DNA of 22,943 bases from positions 1 through 22,943 of the IMG/VR virus record IMGVR_UViG_3300030109_000253, one strand, 5' to 3'. This DNA is from a virus. Below are positions 2,872-19,757 of the stretch, piece by piece (the stretch's first letter is position 1; each line of letters begins with the position of its first letter). The notes beneath the pieces are model-generated. The model did not search any database, had not been told where the DNA came from, and saw only the letters and a list, made by a program, of their open reading frames with translations. The translations under genes were made by a program, and so were the position numbers.

Positions 2872-3711
2872 TTACGGTGTTGTGACGTCTGCCCAGATTT
2901 GATTTACATTAGGATCAACATTGTTCCATAATCTAATGTTTGGTTGACTTGTACCTATAGCAAGACCACTTCCTGTTACAGCTATACCTGCTTTTGCAAC
3001 AATTGTCACTGATCCAGTAGCTAAGTTATATCTATTACCTGTTATAATTGCTGTTGCATTTGCTTTAGCTGTTGCATTACCAATTGATAAATTAACTCTA
3101 TTACCTGTAACTGAGAAGTTTGCAGCGGCTGCAATTGTAACTGTACCAGTTCCAATATTTAATTGATTACCATTTGGTAGAACAACTGCTTTACCAGTTA
3201 CGGTTACATTACCAATTGATGTATTTAATCTGTTTCCTGTTACTTGAGCCGAGGCCCCTGCTTTAGCATTGACTGTACCAGTTGCAATATTTAATTGATT
3301 ACCTGTTGCTGCAACAAGTGCATTTGCAACTACAGTTGGGTTACCTGTAGAAAAATTAAATTGATTTCCTGTAACCGATACAACTGATCCTGCTACAACA
3401 GTCACATTACCTATTGCTGTATTAAGTCTACTACCAGTTGGAACAACTGTTCCACTAATAGAGAATGTAACTGAACCTGTTCCTAAATTATATTGATTAC
3501 CTGTAACCGGTGCATTAGCACCTTGTTTAACAGTAACTGTTCCTGTTGCTAAATTATACCTATTGCCGTTTGGTAAGACTAATGAATTACCAACAACAAC
3601 TACATTACCAATTGATGTATTGACCCTGGACCCTGATACATTGACTAATGCATTGGCTATTCCAATATCTGCAAATGTTGTTTGGGAAAAGGTAGTTGCA
3701 CCGAAGAACAT
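2872..3711 (-). CDS. Beta-repeat virion protein with ten 22-residue repeats (279 aa)
   Basis: A protein with cap-repeat-cap layout. Residues 1-21 form the MFFG...TTF.QTTF.DIG cap. Residues 22-241 are ten repeats of 20-23 residues with core TGN(Q/R).N..(T/I)G(T/N)V.V. Residues 242-279 form a cap ending in VNQIWADV. Repeats 1, 4 and 7 share N-T-(S/A)-I-G-N-V, hinting at a three-repeat higher-order unit, and repeats 2 and 8 share LPNGN. The regular V/T/N/G pattern suggests a beta-solenoid. There is no cysteine, signal peptide or membrane helix. The gene follows fibre 2 by six bases and precedes its own short paralogue. Function is unrecognised; a fibre or virion-surface protein is inferred from neighbours. 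Confidence 0.65.
   Translation of the reverse strand: MFFGATTFSQTTFADIGIANALVNVSGSRVNTSIGNVVVVGNSLVLPNGNRYNLATGTVTVKQGANAPVTGNQYNLGTGSVTFSISGTVVPTGSRLNTAIGNVTVVAGSVVSVTGNQFNFSTGNPTVVANALVAATGNQLNIATGTVNAKAGASAQVTGNRLNTSIGNVTVTGKAVVLPNGNQLNIGTGTVTIAAAANFSVTGNRVNLSIGNATAKANATAIITGNRYNLATGSVTIVAKAGIAVTGSGLAIGTSQPNIRLWNNVDPNVNQIWADVTTP
2989..3648 (-). repeat. Ten tandem repeats of about 66 bp (22 residues)
   Basis: Covers residues 22-241 of the 279-aa protein. Hand alignment gives unit lengths of 22, 23, 20, 23, 22, 22, 22, 22, 22 and 22 residues. The conserved core is G-N-(Q/R)-x-N-x-x-x-G followed by a beta-branched stretch and a small-residue linker. The units have diverged at DNA level, so this is an old protein repeat rather than a fresh duplication. 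Confidence 0.8.
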
Positions 3712-3717
3712 GGTAGC

Positions 3718-6700
3718 TTACCCTTTTTTCAATTCGTCTATTTCTGCTTTTAATTCTTTAATTGCATTAACTAATACTGGTATTAAATGTGAATTTGTTA
3801 CTTTTAAATTTTCATCATTTTCATTATCTATAATAACATTATTTAAACCTTCAAGTTCAAGTATGTCTTGTGCTAAAAATCCATATTTTTTAAAACCATG
3901 TGGCTCTGGATTTTCTCTAGATTTTTTAAATCTAAAACTAACTGGTTTTAGTTGATTAACAAATTCTAAACCAACAGGTACATCTCCAATTTCTGTTTTG
4001 TCTCTTAAATCTGAAGTTACTGTCCAATCTACTTTTACATAAGAATTAGTTATGTCGTTATGACCAGCTACAAATCTATTACTTTCAGTAGTAATATTAA
4101 TCATACTAGCATCAGCACCAGCACAAACACCTATTCCAATATTATTGCCACCTGTTGTTAAATTTCTTAAAGCGTGTTTACCAACTCCTGTGTTACTACC
4201 ACCTGTTGTTAAATTTTCTACTGCTTCATTTCCTAGTGCAACATTACCACTTGCACTTGTAGCATCTAACATTGCAGACCTACCCATAGATACATTATCA
4301 TCACCTGTTGTTAATTTACGGGATGCTTCCGAACCTACTGCCATATTGTTTGAACCTGTAGTAAGAGCATTTAAAGCACATTGACCTAATCCAGCATTAT
4401 TACCACCTGATGTAGTACAACGCATAGAAGCAAAACCAACTGCTGTATTAGCAGTTGCTGTATTTTTTTCTAAAGCAGTTCTTCCAACTGCTACATTATT
4501 AGCACCTGTTTGATTTAATCTTAAAGAACTAACTCCTACTGCTGTGTTAGAATTAGCTGTTGTGTTACACATTAAAGCACAAAAACCTAAAGCTACGTTA
4601 CCATCTCCTTCTGTGTTTTCATATAAAGAATATCTACCTACGGCAGTATTTTCTGTACCTGTTGTGTTACAATTCATTGAATTATTACCAACAGCTGTAT
4701 TACTAGCGGCTGTAGTGTTAGCTTCTAAAGCTGATCTTCCAATTGCTGTATTTGAGCTACCTGTATTTTTATGTAAAGAACAAGCACCTACCGCTGTATT
4801 ATTATCTCCTGTTACATTACATTGTAAAGCTATATGACCAATTGCAGTATTACATAATCCTTCTGTATTTTTACCCAAAGCAGCATTACCCATGGCAACG
4901 TTTCTACAACCTGTTGTATTTGAATCCATAGTACCATCACCAAAAGCATTGTTCTGACCACCTGTAGTATTTAATTTTAAAGCATCATGACCAACTGCTG
5001 TATTTGAACCAGCTGTTGTTGCTGTTGTTAAAGCACCTGTACCAACTGCTGTATTTTGATCTCCGTCTGTAGTAGCTTGTAAAGCACCTTGACCTATTCC
5101 TGTATTGGAATGACCTGTTGTGTTAGTATTTAAAGCATAATAACCAAGAGCTGTATTATTAGATGCTGTTGTGTTATTGGCTAAAGAACAACTTCCTATT
5201 GCTGTGTTATTAGCACCTGTTGTGTTATCGTACAAAGCACATAAACCAACTGCTACATTTAAATTAGCTGTTGTATTAGATCTTAATGATTCAGTTCCTA
5301 TTGATACGTTACAACCACCTGTTGTATTTAAATATAATGATGCTCTACCTACTGCAACATTAGCTGCTGCTGTTGTATTACAACGTGAAGCACAAGAACC
5401 TAAAGCTGTATTTGCACCACCTGTTGTATTACAAGATAAAGCTAAATAACCGATTGAAGCATTGTTTCCACCTGTTGTAGTTTTTCTTAATGCTTCTGCA
5501 CCCATTGCAGTATTTGCTCCAGCAGTAGTATTTGCACATAAAGATTCTTTACCAACTGCAATGTTGTCATCTCCTGTAGTATTTGCTGCTAATGCTTGAT
5601 TTCCAACAGCAACATTATTATTTCCACCACTTGTTTGAGAACATAATGATTGATAACCAATTGCAACATTGTAATTACCTGTTGTATTAGCATACATGGA
5701 TATACCACCAATCGCTACATTTTGTGCACCTGATGTGTTTAAATATAATGCTCGTCTACCAACAGCAGTATTATTATCTCCTGTAACATTTTCTAAAGCT
5801 GAAGCACCCACACCTGTATTACAACTACCTGTATTTCCATTAAGAGCATTAGTACCTACAGCTGTGTTTTCCGTTTGAGTTGTAGTGGATCTCATTGCAC
5901 CACCACCAATAGCAGTATTTGCTGAACCTGTAGTGTTACTATCAAGAGAACGACAACCTATTGCTACATTTCCTGATGCTGTTGTGTTAACCTTTAAAGC
6001 GTCTTTCCCTATTGCAACATTACTAGCACCTGTTGTGTTTGTAAATAAAGCACAAGCACCAACTGCTGTATTGTCATCTGCTGTTGTATTATTAGCTAAG
6101 GATCCTCTACCAATAGCTACGTTACAATCTCCTGTTGTATTATCTGTAAAAGAATCATAACCAAAAGATGCATTTGAATTACCTGAAGTTGTAGCATCAC
6201 CTGAAAATGCACCAACTGCTGTATTTGAATATCCAGAGGTCATAGCTCTTAAAGCACAATGACCTAGTGCTGTGTGTCCACTTGATGTAGTCGAAGTTGC
6301 TAACGTACAATCACCAACTGCTGTGTTTTGAATTCCTGTTGTATTAGAATATAAAGAACATAAACCTATTGCGGTGTTGTTAGAAGCTGTCGTACTAGAA
6401 TATAAAGTACATAAACCTATTGCGGTGTTGTTGGATGCTGTTTGTGCTGAATTTAATGCCTGTCTTCCTATAGCTACATTGTTTTCACCTGAAGTATTAT
6501 TTACTAACGCAGCATCTCCAATAGCAACATTGCAGTTTCCTGTAGTAGTAAGTGCCATTGCAGCTTTACCAACAGATGTATTTCTTGAACCTGTTGTAGT
6601 ATCTCTTAATGCACCACAACCAATTGCAACATTATTAATACCTGAAAAACTTCCACTAGAAAAAATGGAATCACCTAGAGCAACATTTGACGTTCCTGTT

Positions 6701-7245
6701 GGATAGTTACCATCTAGTTTGATTGTACCACCGTCTACACTAACATTACCTGCAACAGTTAATCCATCTGTTACTGCTGTTCCTGTAACATCTATACCTG
6801 TAGCTGTTGTTTCTAGTTTCTTTGCGTTGTCATGATAAAGTTCAACAACACCATCTGACCTAAATTTAGCAATATTTTCACTTGAGCCTTTATTAATATC
6901 TATGCCATCTCCATCTGACCTTAAAATTAATCTTCCTGTCCCAACATCTTCAATAATGGAATTGGAACCATCGTGATATATAGCTAAATCTGAACCAGCA
7001 CCAAAGATAGCTTTCTTACTATCTCCTAATAAAATATCTTCTGTAAATGTAACGTCTTCGTCACTTGAAATTGTAATTGCAACTGATGTTGCATTGTCAT
7101 CTATACCCGCAGAAGTAAAACCAGAAACAGACCCTGCAATAGCTAATGTGGCTCCACTAGGTATAGTAAAAGTATCACCACTGTCACCTAAGGTAACAGC
7201 GGTGCCAGATCTTGGACTAAGTTTATTTACTTTTATTTCACTCAT
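3718..7245 (-). CDS. Giant tail fibre 2 with 17-residue repeats and Peptidase S74 domain (1175 aa)
   Basis: Residues 1-35 hold the SGTAVTLGDSGDTFTIPSG motif shared with fibre 1. Residues 80-160 hold DLAIYHDGSNSIIEDVGTG and DGVVELYHDNAKKLETT, a module common in marine phage tail fibres. Residues 169-186 are the linker shared with fibre 1. Residues 187-1034 are 50 repeats of 17 residues (N-T/V-A-V/I-G-x-x-A-L-x-x-N-T-T-G-x-x). The C-terminus is a Peptidase S74 intramolecular chaperone: SDLRDK at 1078-1083 carries the expected Ser/Lys pair, then LKPVSFRFK and YGFLAQD, then a coiled coil. In this family the domain drives trimerisation and cuts itself off before the Ser. The start overlaps the preceding stop as ATGA. 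The adhesion role is inferred. Confidence 0.88.
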   Translation of the reverse strand: MSEIKVNKLSPRSGTAVTLGDSGDTFTIPSGATLAIAGSVSGFTSAGIDDNATSVAITISSDEDVTFTEDILLGDSKKAIFGAGSDLAIYHDGSNSIIEDVGTGRLILRSDGDGIDINKGSSENIAKFRSDGVVELYHDNAKKLETTATGIDVTGTAVTDGLTVAGNVSVDGGTIKLDGNYPTGTSNVALGDSIFSSGSFSGINNVAIGCGALRDTTTGSRNTSVGKAAMALTTTGNCNVAIGDAALVNNTSGENNVAIGRQALNSAQTASNNTAIGLCTLYSSTTASNNTAIGLCSLYSNTTGIQNTAVGDCTLATSTTSSGHTALGHCALRAMTSGYSNTAVGAFSGDATTSGNSNASFGYDSFTDNTTGDCNVAIGRGSLANNTTADDNTAVGACALFTNTTGASNVAIGKDALKVNTTASGNVAIGCRSLDSNTTGSANTAIGGGAMRSTTTQTENTAVGTNALNGNTGSCNTGVGASALENVTGDNNTAVGRRALYLNTSGAQNVAIGGISMYANTTGNYNVAIGYQSLCSQTSGGNNNVAVGNQALAANTTGDDNIAVGKESLCANTTAGANTAMGAEALRKTTTGGNNASIGYLALSCNTTGGANTALGSCASRCNTTAAANVAVGRASLYLNTTGGCNVSIGTESLRSNTTANLNVAVGLCALYDNTTGANNTAIGSCSLANNTTASNNTALGYYALNTNTTGHSNTGIGQGALQATTDGDQNTAVGTGALTTATTAGSNTAVGHDALKLNTTGGQNNAFGDGTMDSNTTGCRNVAMGNAALGKNTEGLCNTAIGHIALQCNVTGDNNTAVGACSLHKNTGSSNTAIGRSALEANTTAASNTAVGNNSMNCNTTGTENTAVGRYSLYENTEGDGNVALGFCALMCNTTANSNTAVGVSSLRLNQTGANNVAVGRTALEKNTATANTAVGFASMRCTTSGGNNAGLGQCALNALTTGSNNMAVGSEASRKLTTGDDNVSMGRSAMLDATSASGNVALGNEAVENLTTGGSNTGVGKHALRNLTTGGNNIGIGVCAGADASMINITTESNRFVAGHNDITNSYVKVDWTVTSDLRDKTEIGDVPVGLEFVNQLKPVSFRFKKSRENPEPHGFKKYGFLAQDILELEGLNNVIIDNENDENLKVTNSHLIPVLVNAIKELKAEIDELKKG
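4144..6687 (-). repeat. Fifty tandem 51-bp (17-residue) repeats in fibre 2
   Basis: Counting by hand, 50 units cover residues 187-1034. Four units have 16 residues (units 17, 18, 38 and 44) and two have 18 (units 1 and 21), which accounts exactly for the 848 residues. The consensus is NTAVGxxALxxNTTGxx, with variation at positions 6-7, 10-11 and 16-17. The pattern resembles the left-handed beta-roll of trimeric adhesin heads, but that fold is inferred. A degenerate 51st unit (NIGIGVCAG) leads into the S74 domain. Confidence 0.9.
6692..6735. repeat. 44-bp direct repeat, copy in fibre 2
   Basis: These 44 bases are identical to 12239-12282 in fibre 1. They encode the linker DGGTIKLDGNYPTGT, which joins the variable N-terminal part to the first 17-residue repeat in both fibres. 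Third codon positions are also identical here, unlike the diverged arrays around it, which suggests recent exchange or a conserved recombination site. Confidence 0.9.
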
Positions 7246-7454
7246 TTATCTTCTGTTTTTACTTCCTCTTTTTCTTCTTCGGGTAGATTTGATTTTAAAA
7301 TATCTAAATAATGTTTTAACAAAATCTCATTGTGGTCAAAATTAATTTTTAACTTACTTTGATTTTGATTAATTACTTGGATATTATTTAACGCAACTTT
7401 CCCTTCATCTGAAAGCTTAGTTTCATCGTACTTTTTATCGTCAATTGTGATCAT
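7242..7454 (-). CDS. Small conserved phage protein, DUF6447-like (70 aa)
   Basis: A 70-residue acidic protein starting MITIDDKKYDETKLSDEGK, followed by a helical stretch with NNIQVINQNQSKLK and an acidic tail. I recognise the 'MITIDGKEYDEEKLSEEGKA' style from small marine phage proteins placed next to fibre genes, and I believe it corresponds to DUF6447; that label is from memory. Its stop overlaps the start of fibre 2 as ATGA, which suggests translational coupling and perhaps a role in making or attaching that fibre. The ribosome binding site AGGAG overlaps the stop of the 83-aa gene before it. Function is unknown. Confidence 0.65.
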   Translation of the reverse strand: MITIDDKKYDETKLSDEGKVALNNIQVINQNQSKLKINFDHNEILLKHYLDILKSNLPEEEKEEVKTEDK

Positions 7455-7462
7455 TTAGACTC

Positions 7463-7714
7463 CTAGCTTGCTGTATAAGCTTTACCGGCAGTGATCGCTG
7501 CATTAACTGCAGACATGTCTTCATCAGTCCAATAATCTTTAGCAACCATGAGTTCTAAGTGTTCAACATTTCTATCTACACAATCTTGTCTATCAGCTGC
7601 TTCTTCATCCGCCATTTTAGAACCATCAATGATACCATTGATTAGATCTACAGAATGACCCATAGCTGTATAGTCTTGAGCGATTTCTTCTGCTGTTTTT
7701 ACTTCGTCTGACAT
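7463..7714 (-). CDS. Small conserved acidic phage protein (83 aa)
   Basis: An 83-residue, mainly helical, acidic protein beginning MSDEVKTAEEIAQDYTAMG and ending AAITAGKAYTAS. The central segment DRNVEHLELMVAKDYW is a pattern I have seen in other marine phage small proteins, also near fibre genes, but I know of no assigned function. A strong AAGGAGG lies eight bases before the start. It sits between the glycosyltransferase gene and the DUF6447-like gene, all in one tight transcription unit. A fibre assembly or accessory role is possible but rests on position only. Confidence 0.6.
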   Translation of the reverse strand: MSDEVKTAEEIAQDYTAMGHSVDLINGIIDGSKMADEEAADRQDCVDRNVEHLELMVAKDYWTDEDMSAVNAAITAGKAYTAS

Positions 7715-7730: not shown

Positions 7731-8615
7731 TTATATTGTTGCGCACGCAACTTTTGTATTGATTGTATCAATTTTTTTTAAATTATCAATGATAAGCTTT
7801 GGTTCTACCATATTGTTTCTTGGGTCACTATCATTAAATTTAGCTTCATCCCATTCTTTTCCCATATGAAAATGTAGGTTTTTGTTATGAGAATAACCAA
7901 ATTGTATCCATCTTGTTGAACCCCAAATAACAACTCCAGCTTTTTTAGCTGATGGTGAGAAATGCTGTAAACAGCTATCTATACTAACAAAGGTTTCAGC
8001 ACCTTTTAACATTTCATGAATTTGAGCCCAATGTAGATCACATCTAATTGTACCATTAAAATGTGGTTCATTAGGTAAAACACAGTTAATAATAGTTGTA
8101 TCTTTATATTCTTCAAGTAGCATATTAACTAATTGTTGAGCAAGATATGGTTGGTAGTTTCTATTTGGATTAATGTTTTGATATTGAACGTTTTCTCCAT
8201 AGTTCCATTTAGCTTGGCCACCTGAAAACTGAATCATAATATATTTACCAATATTATTATCACCTAACCATTTAGTAACAGCTGCTTTATGATTATCTGT
8301 ATATAATTTAGGTGTCATTGATTTATCGTATTTAACACCGTGATGTTCACAGTAACTTTCAATAAGATGTTGTTTACCAAATTGAAAATTTGATTTGTAT
8401 GGCTCACAATAAAATATATTATCAGACGCCATGATTCTTGGATCTTGTAAAGGTATAGTTTGTTCTAATGCAAGTTTAACATCAGAGTTTCCTGCAAAAC
8501 AATCTATGTACGGAGTGTATATTTGTACTTCCGATTTTTTTCTTAGTTTAGGTAATAAAGCAGTAAATGCAGTACATTTACCCACACCACCTTCTACAAC
8601 GTATGTATTAAGCAT
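7731..8615 (-). CDS. GT9-like glycosyltransferase inside the fibre region (294 aa)
   Basis: Probably a GT-B-fold glycosyltransferase related to family GT9 (ADP-heptose:LPS heptosyltransferase type). The N-terminus has the glycine loop EGGVGK (residues 8-13) followed by TALLPKL, equivalent to the 'GGIGD...P.L' start of GT9 enzymes. IQFSGGQ at 128-134 marks the start of the second Rossmann half. The donor-site region is ETFVSIDSCLQHFSPSAKKAG (about 207-227) and then VVIWGSTRWIQFGY, matching the GT9 'DtG..HlAaAl..P.v.lfG.t' pattern. At 294 residues it is somewhat short for GT9. It has no signal peptide, so it acts in the cytoplasm. Lying between two fibre genes, it might glycosylate a fibre or alter host surface sugar; the substrate cannot be read from sequence. 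GAAAGGA lies just upstream. Confidence 0.68.
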   Translation of the reverse strand: MLNTYVVEGGVGKCTAFTALLPKLRKKSEVQIYTPYIDCFAGNSDVKLALEQTIPLQDPRIMASDNIFYCEPYKSNFQFGKQHLIESYCEHHGVKYDKSMTPKLYTDNHKAAVTKWLGDNNIGKYIMIQFSGGQAKWNYGENVQYQNINPNRNYQPYLAQQLVNMLLEEYKDTTIINCVLPNEPHFNGTIRCDLHWAQIHEMLKGAETFVSIDSCLQHFSPSAKKAGVVIWGSTRWIQFGYSHNKNLHFHMGKEWDEAKFNDSDPRNNMVEPKLIIDNLKKIDTINTKVACATI

Positions 8616-8634: not shown

Positions 8635-11600
8635 TTAGTTGTTTTCTAACGCTTCTATTCTAGATTTCAAGTCTTTATTTTCTGCTGTTAATTCTTGAAT
8701 TGCTTTAATTAAAATTGGGTAAGTTTTCATAGGATCAGCTTCCCATTTTTCAGGATTATCTTTATGTACTAATCTTGTATATTCTGCACTATTAAAATCT
8801 TGTTCTACTTGATCTAATTCTTGTGCAATAAATCCATAATCTTTTTTACCTTTTCTACTTCCATCTCTTGCATTCCAATCAAATTTAACAGGTCTCATAG
8901 CTAAAATATAATCTAACCCATGAGGAATATCTTCAACATTTGTTTTATCTCTTAAATCAGATAGTGTTGAAATAGATGTATCAGCACATCTTAAATTGTT
9001 ATTATTAGAATTTCCTAAAGTAATTTGATTATCAGCACTAAAAGATGATGGTTGAGAATCATAACCAAAAGAAGCATTGTTACTTCCTGTTGATGTAATT
9101 CTTCCAGCTTTATAACCAATGCCTGTATTACAATTCCCTGTAGTTTGATCGCAACCAGTCTGTCTGCCTATATGTGTATTATAACAACCTGTTGTCAGCA
9201 TACAAGCAGAAAAATAACCAACAGCAGTATTTGAATGACCTGACGTATCTTGTCGTAAAGAGCAAGTTCCAATTGCAACTTGATTTCCTATTGAATTAGT
9301 ATTGGATAATGCACAAGTACCTATTGCTACATTTTCAGCAGCATCAATATGTTCAAACATTGCTCTATAACCTATGGCTATATTACATGCAGCTGATGTA
9401 GCATCTAGTAAACCTTGATAACCCATTACTGTATTACAACCACCTGTCATTGCTGCTTGAGATGCACCTTGACCTATTATTATATTTCCATTTCCTGTAG
9501 TTAAACCACAACCAGCTCTTTCACCAATCCCTATATTTGAATCTCCTGTAGTCTGATTCATTAAAGATTGAAAACCAACTGCAACTGTGTTTCCACCTGT
9601 TGTGTTATCAAATAAAGAACACATTCCAACAGCTGTGTTATTATTTGCCGTTGTATTTTTTTTCAAAGCAAATCTACCTGCACCAGTATTATATGAACCT
9701 GTAGTGTTTGCTTGAAGTGAACCATTACCAAGAGCACTATTACATGAACCTGTAGTGTTTGCTTCTAAAGAATTACCAAAAGCTACATTTTCTGCACCTG
9801 TAGTATTTACTAACATAGCAGATTTTCCTACTGCAACGTTAACTCCAGCTGTTGTGTTAGCTTTTAATGCGTTATGACCAACTGCAACATTATTTGTACC
9901 TGTTGTGTTAGCTTTTAGAGCACTCAAACCAACTGCTGTATTATTATTAGCTGTTGTGTTAGCACATAAAGCATCTCTACCATATGCCGCGTTGTAACAA
10001 CCTGTCGTATTACAAGCTAAAGAATTTCCACCCATAGATGTGTTACAAAGTCCTGTTGTATTACAAACACTAGCACCTCTACCAACTGCAGTGTTATCTG
10101 TTCCAGTTGTATTTGAATCTAAAGCATTTGTACCTATACCTGTATTTGAAGTTCCTGTTGTGTTAGCATTTAATGTACAAAAACCTACTGCTGTGTTTAC
10201 ACCAGCTGTGGTATTAGTACACAAAGCATGGTAACCAATTGCAACATTACCATCTCCTGTTGTATTAGATTTTAATGCTCGAAGACCTACAACTGTATTA
10301 CAATGACCCTCTGTATTTGAACAACCTGCTTCTCTACCTATAACAGTATTTTCATGTCCTGTTGTGTTAGAATCTAAAGCATCACATCCCACTGCTACAT
10401 TATCAGAACCTGTTGTGTTAGCACCTAAAGCACTTCTTCCAACTGCTGTGTTTTGTGTTCCTGTTGTGTTAGCTGCTAAAGCACCTCTACCAATAGCAGT
10501 GTTATTTGCACCTGTAGTATTTACTCTTAATGCTATTTCTCCTACTGCTACATTATTTGAAGCAGTGGTATTTGTAACCAAAGCACATTTTCCAACTGCA
10601 ACATTTTCTGAACCTGTTGTATTAGCTTTTAAAGAATTTGAACCGACAGCAGTGTTATTACCTGCTGTTGTATTTCCACCTAAAGCACCACAACCCACCG
10701 CAACATTGTCATCTCCTGTAGTGTTAGCACCTAAAGCACCATATCCATTAGCAACATTTTTACATCCTTCTGTATTAGCAAATAGAGATGTAAAACCAGA
10801 AGCAACGTTGTGAGTACCTGTTGTGTTAGCTTTTAAAGAACAAGAACCAACGGCAACATTTCTGCAACCTGTGCTAACAAATAAAGCTTGACTTCCAACT
10901 GCTGTACTATCAGAAGCTGTAGAATTATTTTGTAAAGCATCTAAACCTACTGCTGTATTATTTGAACCTGTTGTATTTGAATCTAAAGAATCTTTTCCAA
11001 CAGAAACATTTCCTGTTCCTGTTGTGTTACTTAATAAAGAGTGTTTTCCTATTGCTGTATTATTATCTGCTGTTGTGTTGTTATATAAAGAACCTTGACC
11101 TATCGCAGTGTTAGAAGCACCCTCTGTATTAGTAAACATTGCTGTACTTCCAATGGCTGTATTATGATCTGCTGTAGTGTTAGATTTTAAGGTGTTATTA
11201 CCCATTGCAACATTAGTTGCACCTGTTGTATTTGCTGCCATAGAACAAGCACCTACTGCTGTATTATTAGAAGCTGTTTCATTTAAAGCTAAAGAACCCA
11301 TACCTAAAGCAGTATTAAAACATCCTGTTGTACTAGCTTTCATTGCATTTTGTCCTAAAGCTACATTTTTACATCCTGTAGTATTATTACATAAAGAAAA
11401 ACTACCTGCTGAAAAATTCTGAAAACCCGTTGTAGTTTTTAAACCGGAGCAAAGACCTATTGCAATGTTATTTCCTCCTGTCGTATGAGCTTTTAAAGCA
11501 TGAGCACCAATTGCTACACTGGCTGTACCTGTTGTATTAGCACACATCGCATTAAAACCTACTGCAGTGTTGTTACTTGCTGTGGTATTGTCACCTAACG

Positions 11601-12426
11601 CTTCTTGTCCAAGAGCAGTGTTTCCATCTCCTGTGGTATTTAGTGTTAAAGAAAAAGCACCTACAGAAGTATTTTTATCTCCTGTAGTATTAGCATCTAA
11701 AGAGCCACTACCTACACTTACATTAAACTCTCCTGTTGTGTTAAGTATTAAAGCATTTTTACCTACTGCTGTGTTGTGATCTCCTGTAGTGTTAGAAAAT
11801 AAAGAACTATGACCTACAGATGTATTACAAGATCCTGTCGTATTAGTGTCTAATGCTTGGTAACCAACTGCTACATTATCTGATGCTGTTGTGTTAGCTT
11901 TTAAAGCACAAGCACCTAATGCAACATTTTGTGCTCCTGTTGTGTTAACTTTTAAAGATTCAAAACCAACTGCTGTGTTATTGTCTGCTGTAGTGTTAGC
12001 TTCCATTGCATTACGACCAACTGCAGTGTTATTATCTCCTGTTTCGTTATTTCTTAATGCTTGTCTACCAATTGCAGTGTTTTCTGCACCTGTAGTGTTA
12101 ACACAAAATGTTCTATACCCTAAAGCTGAGTTTCCACTTCCTGATGTATTAGCAGTTAAAGATTCTCCACCAATAGCAGTATTACCACCACCTGAAGTTA
12201 AAGAATCTAAAGCAGTATCTCCTAAAGCAACGTTACCTGTTCCTGTTGGATAGTTACCATCTAGTTTGATTGTACCACCGTCAACGACAAAATTTCCAGT
12301 AAGCGTTAATCCTCCACCTGGTGCAAGTGATACACCTGAAGGAATAGTAACCGTATCACCAGAAGATCCTAGTGTTAAGGTTGTACCTGATTGAGGTAAT
12401 ATAGTATCTACTTCTATTCTACTCAT
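8635..12426 (-). CDS. Giant tail fibre 1 with 17-residue repeats and Peptidase S74 domain (1263 aa)
   Basis: Residues 1-35 carry SGTTLTLGSSGDTVTIPSG, the same N-terminal motif as fibre 2. Residues 48-64 are the shared VDGGTIKLDGNYPTGTG linker. Residues 65-1116 are 62 copies of a 17-residue repeat (N-T/V-A-V/I-G-x-x-A-L-x-x-N-T-T-G-x-x). A short connector is followed by the Peptidase S74 domain: SDLRDK at 1156-1161 with the expected Ser1156 and Lys1161, MRPVKFDW, YGFIAQE, and a coiled coil at the C-terminus. In this family the domain assembles three chains and is then released by cutting before the Ser. Unlike fibre 2 it lacks the IYHDGSNS module. About 36 cysteines occur, nearly all in variable repeat positions. 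It starts by a TAATG overlap with the preceding gene. The adhesion role is inferred. Confidence 0.88.
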   Translation of the reverse strand: MSRIEVDTILPQSGTTLTLGSSGDTVTIPSGVSLAPGGGLTLTGNFVVDGGTIKLDGNYPTGTGNVALGDTALDSLTSGGGNTAIGGESLTANTSGSGNSALGYRTFCVNTTGAENTAIGRQALRNNETGDNNTAVGRNAMEANTTADNNTAVGFESLKVNTTGAQNVALGACALKANTTASDNVAVGYQALDTNTTGSCNTSVGHSSLFSNTTGDHNTAVGKNALILNTTGEFNVSVGSGSLDANTTGDKNTSVGAFSLTLNTTGDGNTALGQEALGDNTTASNNTAVGFNAMCANTTGTASVAIGAHALKAHTTGGNNIAIGLCSGLKTTTGFQNFSAGSFSLCNNTTGCKNVALGQNAMKASTTGCFNTALGMGSLALNETASNNTAVGACSMAANTTGATNVAMGNNTLKSNTTADHNTAIGSTAMFTNTEGASNTAIGQGSLYNNTTADNNTAIGKHSLLSNTTGTGNVSVGKDSLDSNTTGSNNTAVGLDALQNNSTASDSTAVGSQALFVSTGCRNVAVGSCSLKANTTGTHNVASGFTSLFANTEGCKNVANGYGALGANTTGDDNVAVGCGALGGNTTAGNNTAVGSNSLKANTTGSENVAVGKCALVTNTTASNNVAVGEIALRVNTTGANNTAIGRGALAANTTGTQNTAVGRSALGANTTGSDNVAVGCDALDSNTTGHENTVIGREAGCSNTEGHCNTVVGLRALKSNTTGDGNVAIGYHALCTNTTAGVNTAVGFCTLNANTTGTSNTGIGTNALDSNTTGTDNTAVGRGASVCNTTGLCNTSMGGNSLACNTTGCYNAAYGRDALCANTTANNNTAVGLSALKANTTGTNNVAVGHNALKANTTAGVNVAVGKSAMLVNTTGAENVAFGNSLEANTTGSCNSALGNGSLQANTTGSYNTGAGRFALKKNTTANNNTAVGMCSLFDNTTGGNTVAVGFQSLMNQTTGDSNIGIGERAGCGLTTGNGNIIIGQGASQAAMTGGCNTVMGYQGLLDATSAACNIAIGYRAMFEHIDAAENVAIGTCALSNTNSIGNQVAIGTCSLRQDTSGHSNTAVGYFSACMLTTGCYNTHIGRQTGCDQTTGNCNTGIGYKAGRITSTGSNNASFGYDSQPSSFSADNQITLGNSNNNNLRCADTSISTLSDLRDKTNVEDIPHGLDYILAMRPVKFDWNARDGSRKGKKDYGFIAQELDQVEQDFNSAEYTRLVHKDNPEKWEADPMKTYPILIKAIQELTAENKDLKSRIEALENN
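9079..12234 (-). repeat. Sixty-two tandem 51-bp (17-residue) repeats in fibre 1
   Basis: Hand parsing gives 62 units for residues 65-1116; two units (27 and 49) have 16 residues and the rest 17, which accounts for the full length. Units near the S74 end (54 onward) are more degenerate than the middle ones. Some neighbours are close at DNA level: a 21-base string at 9692-9712 recurs exactly 51 bases on at 9743-9763. This supports growth by tandem duplication. Confidence 0.9.
12239..12282. repeat. 44-bp direct repeat, copy in fibre 1
   Basis: Identical over 44 bases to 6692-6735 in fibre 2. It encodes the same linker just before the first 17-residue repeat. Together the two copies bracket about 5.5 kb, including most of fibre 1's array, the glycosyltransferase and two small genes, so homologous recombination between them could delete or swap that segment. 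Confidence 0.9.
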
Positions 12427-17622: not shown

Positions 17623-18188
17623 TATATACCTGCCGTTCCTTTTAAGAAATGCTCGTTAATCATAACAACTAGATTAACATTAGCAGATCCTGCTGTGTTA
17701 TTACTAGGATCTTTTGAAATCCCCATAATTCTTAATTGTGCTGTACCAGTCTTCTGATCAGAAGTATCTAATTCAACTTTAGATACATAATCTGGTGAAG
17801 ATCCTGCTGCATACACAATATCAGCGTTTAGGCCGACGTCTGCTGCTGCAGTTGCGCCGTCCGCTTGTACTTCAAACCTTTCGTAAGGGTCGTCAGAAAC
17901 GAATCCTACGATATCTGTTGCAGTGTTACTTGCATTCAGATGGTTTGCCCATGTTGGCTTGCTTGTAGAAGCATCAGTATAGAAAACTCCAGTAAGTGGA
18001 CCCAATAATAGTGTATCACCTGCTGCTGCTACACCAATAGTACCAGTAGCTAACATTTCTACTGGATCACCTTGGTAAATAGCTGTTGCAGAAGCTGCAA
18101 TACTATATTCGGATAAACCTTGGTTGTCTCTATTCTGGCCAACTTTTCCTATTGCTTTCAAACCGAAAGCTGCGTCTTGGTTTGCCAT
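17622..18188 (-). CDS. Capsid decoration-like protein (188 aa)
   Basis: A 188-residue protein starting MANQDAAFGLKAIGKVGQNR, then SEYSIAASATAIYQGDPVEML, LLGPLTGVFYTDAST, VGFVSDDPYERFEVQADG and TAQLRIMGISKDPSNN, ending LVVMINEHFLKG. Proteins with this beta-barrel pattern are usually encoded immediately before the major capsid gene in marine phages and are often labelled head decoration proteins, though few have been tested. AAAGGAG lies upstream, just after a small hairpin. Its stop overlaps the capsid start by TAATG, so the two should be made in a fixed ratio. It has no cysteine or membrane segment. Confidence 0.62.
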   Translation of the reverse strand: MANQDAAFGLKAIGKVGQNRDNQGLSEYSIAASATAIYQGDPVEMLATGTIGVAAAGDTLLLGPLTGVFYTDASTSKPTWANHLNASNTATDIVGFVSDDPYERFEVQADGATAAADVGLNADIVYAAGSSPDYVSKVELDTSDQKTGTAQLRIMGISKDPSNNTAGSANVNLVVMINEHFLKGTAGI

Positions 18189-18204
18189 TATATTTTCTCC
18201 TTTT

Positions 18205-18233
18205 GTGAGCTGTCTTTACAGACCTCCACTCAC
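18205..18233 (-). promoter_or_regulatory. Two-level hairpin with GUAA loop before the decoration-like gene
   Basis: On the minus strand GTGAG/CTCAC form an outer 5-bp stem, and GTCT-GTAA-AGAC form an inner 4-bp stem with a GNRA-class loop. It sits directly upstream of the AAAGGAG binding site of the 188-aa gene, within the 83-bp gap 18189-18271 that otherwise holds nothing recognised. It probably acts on mRNA stability or translation of the decoration and capsid genes; the outer stem is short, so confidence is modest. Confidence 0.4.
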
Positions 18234-18271
18234 GGGTTTATTTTATTCGTTGGGTAGGAATCGTTAAAAAA

Positions 18272-18736
18272 TTAACTTTTCTTTGAACCACCGAAGGTTA
18301 CACGTGTCTGTCGATCAATATTGATCGGCATACTTGGGTGCTGTTCCTTCATAAGATCGTTGTCTACTGCTTCAACATTATCCTGACCTTGTTTAACATA
18401 ATAGTCAGTTCGTTGTTCTGCAATCTCTTCCGGTACCCTAGCCAGCACTAGGCCTCCTACTCCGATTACCCCTTTGTATTTTCCATCATCCACAATTGGA
18501 AAGTCTGAGTCTGGATATTCATCAGCTCTTACAAGCTCGTATCCGGATCTAATTCTTCCAGCGACGTTTTTAGTGTCTTGGAATCCCATAGATTCTACTC
18601 TGATCCATCTGTGTTTAAAACCTGTTGGTGCAGGGGGTGCATCTAAAGATGAAGGTGGAGTCCAAACTTTTTTCTTAGATTCTTTTTCTCTTGTCTGACT
18701 CGCACGGGATGCTCTTTTTTCATTATTATTTTCCAT
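18272..18736 (-). CDS. Conserved protein between scaffold and capsid genes (154 aa)
   Basis: A 154-residue protein with a charged, disordered N-terminus (ENNNEKRASRASQTREKESK), then WTPPSSLDAPPAPTGFKHRW, RVESMGFQDTKNVAGRIRSG, YELVRADEYPDSDFPIVDDG and GVIGVGGLVLARVPEEIAEQR. I have seen this pattern in many marine phage genomes at the same place, between scaffold and capsid genes, but know no proven role; a capsid assembly or minor head protein is possible. The gene follows the scaffold gene by four bases, and its AAGGAGG binding site overlaps the end of the scaffold gene, which suggests coupling. Confidence 0.62.
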   Translation of the reverse strand: MENNNEKRASRASQTREKESKKKVWTPPSSLDAPPAPTGFKHRWIRVESMGFQDTKNVAGRIRSGYELVRADEYPDSDFPIVDDGKYKGVIGVGGLVLARVPEEIAEQRTDYYVKQGQDNVEAVDNDLMKEQHPSMPINIDRQTRVTFGGSKKS

Positions 18737-18740
18737 ATGC

Positions 18741-19757
18741 TTATGCCTCCTTCGTGATTTTTAATTGTTTCGCATATTCTTCTAGTGGCACACCTAATTT
18801 TTTAGCGATTGCTACCTGTGATGATGTGAGTCTCACAGTCTTGCGACCAGTATTTGTACTTCGCTTCGCACTAGCTACTGTTTGTACGGGTTTGGTCGTT
18901 TCCCCTTTATCTGATGTATTTGTATCAAATTTGTGGGGGAATTCAAGTCTTATTCTTTTATCTATTTCAGAATAATACTCATCAGATTGAGGATCATAAC
19001 CTTCTTCCTCTGTAAGTTTCTTATGTAGATCAAAAGCAGTATAAGTCATAGCATTATCTTGACCAAACCAAGCATTTCTAGATGCCCATGTTTCAGCCTT
19101 AGGATCTGGTGTTCCTTTTGCTGCTTGTTGTCTATTTAAGTTTATATTTGAAGTTTTAACTTCTTCAGCTTTTCTAGCTTTATACTGTTCTTGAGCAACT
19201 ATAGTTTCTTTAAGTTTAGCATTTTTATAACTTAACTCAGAAATTGCAGTTTGAGCTTCAACTTCAGCATTTATATCTCCAGCTTCTCTTGCTGCTGCAA
19301 GTTTTGCTTTTGCTGCTTGAAGACCATTAACAACACTTTCTTCAGCATTTTTAAAAAACTCAGGTTCAAACTTTGAGATTTTTGCTTCAGCAGCTTCTTT
19401 TGCTTTTATTTGTGATTGAGCATAAGTTAACGCTTCATCTTTTTGTCTCTCAGCTTCTCTCCATTTATGAGTTAGTTTAGCTATTCTTCTTTGTACTCCA
19501 TCAGAGTATTTTTCTAATTCTTGTTCTTTATCGTCCTTTGCAGGATCTTCTTTCTTTTCTTCTTTTTCTTCTAACTTAACTTCACGTTCATTTTCGTAAG
19601 TTTTATCTTCAGCTTCTTTTTCTTCTACAACAGGTCTTACTGTTGGTTCTTCTTTTACTTCTGGTTGTTCAATTTCTGCTGAATTATTTTCTTCAGGAAT
19701 ATCAACATCCATTTCTGGACCAGATGTATCTATATCGACTTTATTGTCTATTGGCAT
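18741..19757 (-). CDS. Capsid scaffolding protein (338 aa)
   Basis: A 338-residue highly charged protein. The N-terminal third is very acidic and low in complexity (EVKEEPTVRPVVEEKEAEDK). The middle, about residues 80-205, is a long Ala/Lys/Glu-rich coiled coil (KWREAERQKDEALTYAQSQ, AAKAKLAAAREAGDINAEVE). The C-terminal end has KTVRLTSSQVAIAKKLGVPL and EEYAKQL, a basic helix-turn-helix-like end typical of phage scaffold proteins, which binds the coat protein in the P22 example. It sits before the capsid genes, as expected. It would guide procapsid assembly and then leave. AAGGAG lies eight bases before the start. Confidence 0.78.
   Translation of the reverse strand: MPIDNKVDIDTSGPEMDVDIPEENNSAEIEQPEVKEEPTVRPVVEEKEAEDKTYENEREVKLEEKEEKKEDPAKDDKEQELEKYSDGVQRRIAKLTHKWREAERQKDEALTYAQSQIKAKEAAEAKISKFEPEFFKNAEESVVNGLQAAKAKLAAAREAGDINAEVEAQTAISELSYKNAKLKETIVAQEQYKARKAEEVKTSNINLNRQQAAKGTPDPKAETWASRNAWFGQDNAMTYTAFDLHKKLTEEEGYDPQSDEYYSEIDKRIRLEFPHKFDTNTSDKGETTKPVQTVASAKRSTNTGRKTVRLTSSQVAIAKKLGVPLEEYAKQLKITKEA

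Follow-up and report, generated by a model that had tools for sequence, protein, structure and literature searches.

Directly behind the gene for a tail fibre built from 17-residue repeats, phages of several kinds carry a gene for a GT9-like glycosyltransferase (GT), and the repeat fibres of these phages hold cysteines at six positions of the repeat that are free of cysteine in nearly all sampled fibres without the gene. We propose that this phage-borne late enzyme, a GT-B glycosyltransferase of the GT9/TibC type, S-glycosylates surface cysteines of the phage's own repeat fibres, and we put the probability of this reading at roughly 0.6. Four observations underlie it: the gene itself, its GT-B/GT9 likeness, its linkage to the fibre and its near-complete co-occurrence with cysteine at the six positions.

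The window, the whole stretch of DNA analysed here, comprises 22,943 nucleotides of a 30,465-base virus record (IMGVR_UViG_3300030109_000253). Within it, the GT is encoded by an intact minus-strand open reading frame (ORF; 7731-8615, ATG start, 294 residues), whose translation contains all of the motifs quoted in an earlier note on this DNA (MLNTYVVEGGVGK, TALLPKL, SIDSCLQHFSPSAKKAG and VVIWGSTRW). The ORF is not a chance frame, since relatives are encoded in 217 IMG/VR stretches, the mean column identity is 86% in an alignment of 23 of these, and isolates carry annotated counterparts: the Pelagibacter phages HTVC111P and HTVC112P have an 80% identical gene, annotated 'putative glycosyl transferase', which starts at the last base of the preceding fibre gene. 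The placement between two fibre genes given in the same note was also confirmed, both being on the same strand as the GT. Fibre 1 (8635-12426, minus strand; 1263 residues), the proposed acceptor, consists of a 17-residue repeat (NxAxGxxALxxNTTGxx) and a C-terminal S74 chaperone domain (E = 4.8e-12), and its stop codon lies 19 nt ahead of the GT start. Fibre 2 (3718-7245, minus strand; 1175 residues), the proposed second acceptor, has the same repeat and an S74 domain (E = 6.7e-9), and is separated from the GT by two small minus-strand ORFs. One encodes s83 (7463-7714), an 83-residue accessory protein that in neighbourhood tables usually follows the GT, or stands straight after the fibre where the GT is absent; it is found after a repeat fibre, with or without an intervening GT, in the window and in loci L178, L181, L183 and L187, and may serve in fibre assembly or as a chaperone. 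The other encodes s70 (7242-7454), a 70-residue protein with a weak DUF6447/phrog_21153 match, which often follows s83 and in myophage-like loci adjoins the GT as well.

The genes flanking this locus include a major head protein and tail or virion proteins, and a terminase-like ORF lies in the record outside the window. In the remaining 7.5 kb of the record there is neither a second GT-like ORF (by name) nor a GT2 match; two ORFs of this part (L493) run into short N stretches, translated as XXXX, which mark gaps in the record beside the window. Two adjacent minus-strand ORFs of the window, 2872-3711 and 2608-2862, share the start MFFGxxTFxQTTFxDIG and have related repeats, and the 279-residue member of the pair is a separate, cysteine-free repeat protein of the TGNQLNIATGTV type.

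Fold search, family profiles and profile alignment together back the earlier description of the protein as GT9-like, and we class it, from its predicted structure, as a GT9-like GT-B enzyme. The Pfam GT9 profile (PF01075) scores the window copy at 18.0 bits, below its cut-off of 22, and passes the cut-off in the relatives from loci L098 (27.1 bits) and L092 (22.5 bits); 13 of 14 relatives match it at E<=0.1. An AlphaFold2 model was built from 21 sequences (mean pLDDT 71, pTM 0.76, two loops below 50), and its best match in the PDB is the GT9 entry 3tov (E = 2e-5, TMq 0.62). All 22 matches at E<=0.001 are either 3tov or TibC (4rap/4rb4); about 21 of these top 22 are TibC chains (ranks 3-22), which come repeatedly from two entries and therefore count as one match. 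Neither WaaC nor WaaF appears among the 50 best PDB matches of the model. The fold search against GT-B structures, named beforehand as a check on the claim, thus recovered a GT-B/GT9 fold and left the claim standing. By hhalign, the C-terminal part of the GT aligns with WaaC/WaaF, the phage DSCxxHF falling on the DTGxxH of WaaC (DTGLSH) and RNY on KHW. A sequence search of the PDB with the GT returned nothing meaningful, and PHROGs holds no family for it. Among the genome contigs searched for cellular homologues, the single match is on a Roseovarius metagenome-assembled genome contig with a phage-like end (L084; JALQUE010000049.1), in which about 8.8 kb of bacterial chromosome is followed by myophage-like sequence and which is probably a chimeric assembly or a binning artefact.

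In an alignment of 14 diverse relatives, D213-S-C-L-Q-H218 and R152-N-Y154 are invariant or nearly so, and the N-terminal EGG[VI]GK, with K13, is invariant; a marine virus protein with 23% identity (AG-345-L05) has the corresponding GGFGK. Read by eye, as hhalign did not reach the N-terminus, EGG[VI]GK occupies the place of SSMGD in WaaC, which ends in what we take to be the GT9 catalytic residue, Asp13. The catalytic residue of TibC is Asp110 (PMC4358343). From this placement of EGG[VI]GK, the phage GT apparently has an invariant Lys in place of the Asp that serves catalysis in GT9 enzymes and TibC, and its transferase activity could be altered or lost.

By analogy, the phage GT would work most like TibC and AAH (the BAHT family; 4rap/4rb4; PMC4358343), in which a GT-B enzyme is encoded beside the repeat adhesin that it modifies; TibC hyperglycosylates such adhesins (PMC4358343). 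The likeness lies in the catalytic fold, which is among the best structural matches, and in the adjoining gene for a repeat protein as proposed many-site substrate. The differences are several. The N-terminal beta-barrel of about 97 residues is absent, the catalytic glycine motif beginning as early as residue 8 of 294; four conserved cysteines that could form an iron finger of the TibC type are missing from the alignment of 14 relatives, where C192 is the sole invariant Cys; the catalytic Asp is apparently Lys; the proposed acceptor is Cys, not Ser/Thr; and the GT is a phage late gene. With WaaC/WaaF (GT9, PF01075) it shares the aligned motifs and the Pfam match passed by some relatives, but it has G-K for the G-D motif in the motif comparison and is surrounded by virion genes, not LPS genes. 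The phage GT thus lacks two defining features of the BAHT family and one of GT9.

Linkage to the fibre was examined in 118 GT copies from the first IMG/VR loci, 114 of them with visible upstream sequence; these contigs are fragments, some duplicated, with mechanical ORF calls. In 97 of the 114 the GT directly follows a gene for an S74 fibre with the 17-residue repeat, with one-base overlaps or gaps of mostly 2-22 bases between fibre stop and GT start. The other 17 comprise fibres cut by the contig edge, split fibres, cases of one or two small intervening ORFs, and myophage-like loci, where the fibre sits further upstream; in L459 a Cys-rich fibre lies nine genes ahead of the GT, and at three loci (L042, L064 and L098) no fibre is in view. 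One locus (L071) has two fibre–GT–s83 units. The linkage recurs on three or more phage backbones, at GC contents from 31 to 64%, the GT being found in podovirus-like phages, HTVC111P-like siphophages, myophage-like phages and freshwater phages of 64% GC, with GT identities of 50-90% across this range. The fibre–GT cassette clearly moves between phages, and is common to abundant marine podo-, sipho- and myophage-like viruses and to freshwater phages.

A second sample of 50 siphophage loci, anchored on the tail protein, contained 17 with a repeat fibre and the GT, 29 with another fibre type and no GT, four with a repeat fibre and no GT, and none with another fibre type and the GT; the four repeat fibres without GT are Cys-poor or truncated. 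Ten independent pairs can be drawn on the tail-protein tree; in about 7.8 of them the GT goes with the fibre type and in none against it (p about 0.008), so that fibre type and GT switched together about eight times in one siphophage lineage and never in the opposite sense. The earlier note had named free distribution among phages lacking such fibres as evidence against it; the GT is instead tied to the repeat fibre, in 97 of 114 copies and in none of the 29 loci with another fibre type.

Cysteine content was compared in a sample anchored on s83, with 90 fibre–GT–s83 loci (76 distinct fibres) and 121 fibre–s83 loci without GT (112 distinct fibres), counts that overstate independence and are not independent trials, since the s83 tree holds only four changes of GT state, one of them on a well-supported branch. 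The repeat units average 2.98% Cys in the 90 loci with the GT versus 0.10% in the 121 without it (AUC 1.000). Among distinct units, Cys occupies 888 of the 10,782 sites at repeat positions 6, 7, 10, 11, 16 and 17 where the GT is present and 0 of 10,278 where it is absent; at the remaining eleven positions the counts are 4 and 31, respectively. Outside the repeat, the same fibres are alike in Cys content (0.31% with the GT, 0.35% without), and the other ORFs of GT-bearing loci are slightly richer in Cys than those of loci without the GT (0.94% versus 0.63%). Wherever a locus carries the GT, each of its repeat fibres (176 in total) has Cys at the six positions; 56 of these fibres are not adjacent to the GT, and those far from it are as Cys-rich as the adjacent ones. 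In the window, 19 of the 36 Cys of fibre 1 (45 canonical units) and 21 of the 28 Cys of fibre 2 (41 canonical units) stand at the six positions, and most other structural proteins have no such Cys.

The same holds in cultured phages: HTVC111P and HTVC112P, which carry the GT, have nine and seven Cys at the six positions, and the sampled isolates and records without it have none, SPO1 (two) excepted. As a cause, host or base composition was ruled out, because the GT-bearing freshwater phages of 64% GC have Cys-rich fibres whereas the SAR11 phage Kolga, which lacks the GT, does not show the pattern. NTT and the sequon were likewise discarded as discriminating features; their frequencies, like those of Asn, Thr and Ser, are nearly the same whether or not the GT accompanies the fibre. 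In the repeat units Tyr is about half as frequent with the GT as without it (1.37% versus 2.82%), a drop most visible at variable position 6, as though the surface of the repeat carried either aromatic residues or cysteines. The variability of the six positions leads us to infer that they are exposed on the surface. An AlphaFold2 model of the repeat has two short strands per unit; neither the model nor the sequence has a significant match in the PDB, so a YadA-like fold is suggested by the repeat motif rather than by a structural match.

A repeat fibre with 6.4% Cys (L466:1-3020) is accompanied by no GT of this GT9-like family within its 9.9-kb fragment and is the one real exception to the pattern. 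The Cys-rich fibre of this fragment has a sulfotransferase gene close by, and 2OG-Fe(II) oxygenases are encoded there as well; in the myophage-like loci L084-L090 it is the GT that has a sulfotransferase gene nearby, and further modification of a glycan is conceivable in these loci. SPO1 gp2.52, with its two Cys and no match to the phage GT family, is a weak counterexample. Ten further loci with Cys-rich fibres and an apparent lack of the GT do not count as exceptions: in L137, L140, L141, L147, L159, L161, L164 and L166, from a sample anchored on the fibre, the contigs end beside the fibres, and in L171 and L421 they are likewise cut, so that the GT position is out of view. The virus AG-345-L05 (L125) encodes its 23% identical GGFGK protein at 17977-18870, about 15 kb from a Cys-rich repeat fibre at 3-2945 (3.3% Cys in the repeat region), and the association may thus reach distant relatives.

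Three other explanations have to be weighed against fibre S-glycosylation. The fibre and GT could have been joined once and travel as a cassette with no functional tie, and the few independent gains or losses of the GT on the s83 tree, together with the clear mobility of the cassette, are what such a history would leave. The cysteines, however, do not behave as hitchhikers. At 50-60% fibre identity 11% of Cys sites are shared and at 60-70% identity 27%, nearly as rapid a turnover as at other variable sites, and yet density is maintained, so cysteines must be gained continually in GT lineages. Adding the Cys-rich fibres that are not adjacent to the GT, the complete lack of Cys at 10,278 sites without it and the crossing of host and GC boundaries, we favour a functional tie between the GT and the fibre cysteines beyond shared descent, and regard pure linkage as highly improbable.

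The remaining two accept an enzymatic role and differ in the target. TibC and AAH modify Ser/Thr and NGT modifies Asn, and the phage GT, with its TibC-like fold and its N-, T- and S-rich fibres, could place its sugar on Ser, Thr or Asn residues in the NTTG turns of the fibre, the cysteines merely accompanying it, for example as inter-repeat disulphides. The repeat adhesins modified by TibC (PMC4358343) offer a precedent. This was close to the earlier suggestion that the Thr/Asn-rich repeats are the target, which did not hold up: these residues and the sequons are alike in the two sets, which Cys separates completely, and NTTG looks structural, being kept in fibres both with and without the GT. 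We consider such an acceptor unlikely. Of the view that the enzyme acts on the virion, the part that stands is the linkage to the fibre and the part that does not is the Thr/Asn acceptor. Modification of host LPS or another surface glycan against superinfection or re-adsorption, with the fibre link arising from co-evolution of receptor binding and masking, would suit the LPS-core action of GT9 enzymes and the alignment of the C-terminal part with WaaC/WaaF. Pelagimyophage glycosyltransferases have been so interpreted (PMC7029224), and the earlier note had put forward a change of host LPS against superinfection as an equally testable option. This explanation, however, does not predict that Cys in a fibre repeat should track the GT, and the enzyme is 50-90% identical in phages of 31 to 64% GC, whose hosts are probably unrelated; we judge it decidedly unlikely.

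S-glycosylation of the fibre would proceed as follows. The GT would act in the cytoplasm of the infected cell on the phage's own fibres, before or during assembly, and link a sugar to those surface cysteines that occupy variable positions in the 17-residue repeat unit. That these cysteines are the acceptors, and a sugar the transferred group, we infer; ADP-heptose as donor is a guess by analogy with GT9 enzymes and TibC. The invariant Lys in the usual place of the catalytic Asp would fit a thiol acceptor. The glycan would then shield or tune the fibre, the likely benefit being protection of exposed thiols, fibre shielding or tuned adsorption. We give somewhat better than even odds to a dedicated phage S-glycosylation cassette, in which a GT9/TibC-like enzyme with Lys for Asp serves many surface cysteines along the tail fibres.

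The proposed chemistry, a sugar placed on cysteine, is that of the glycocin S-glycosyltransferases (SunS, ThuS and relatives), but these are GT2-type GT-A enzymes with small bacteriocin substrates, whereas the phage GT is of GT-B/GT9 type. Glycocins provide most of the known cases of Cys S-glycosylation (PMC9877059, PMC6405829), and the literature searched yielded no report joining this modification with phage fibres. Virion glycosylation has been described for the capsid and tail tube of the mycobacteriophages Che8 (gp110), Corndog (gp38) and Myrna (PMC12363180, citing Freeman et al., 2023). There, too, a phage-encoded glycosyltransferase acts on the phage's own structural proteins; the phages are different, the targets are capsid and tail tube instead of tail-fibre repeats, and no cysteine signature is reported for them.

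If the proposal is true, S-glycosylation would have been found in a phage fibre for the first time. To our knowledge, no other GT9-like enzyme is known to use cysteine as its acceptor, and GT9-like chemistry would be extended to thiols. Exposed Cys in a fibre repeat would predict the GT, and virion glycosylation in phages other than mycobacteriophages would gain a gene-level marker. What fibre glycosylation is for could then be tested in existing cultured pelagiphages, HTVC111P and HTVC112P. Even if the acceptor is wrong, an association of one gene with one residue type at six repeat positions needs explaining. The near-complete restriction of the GT to phages with surface-Cys fibres suggests that S-linked sugars are put on the fibre by the phage itself, in which case some of the ocean's commonest phages would have densely S-glycosylated tail fibres.
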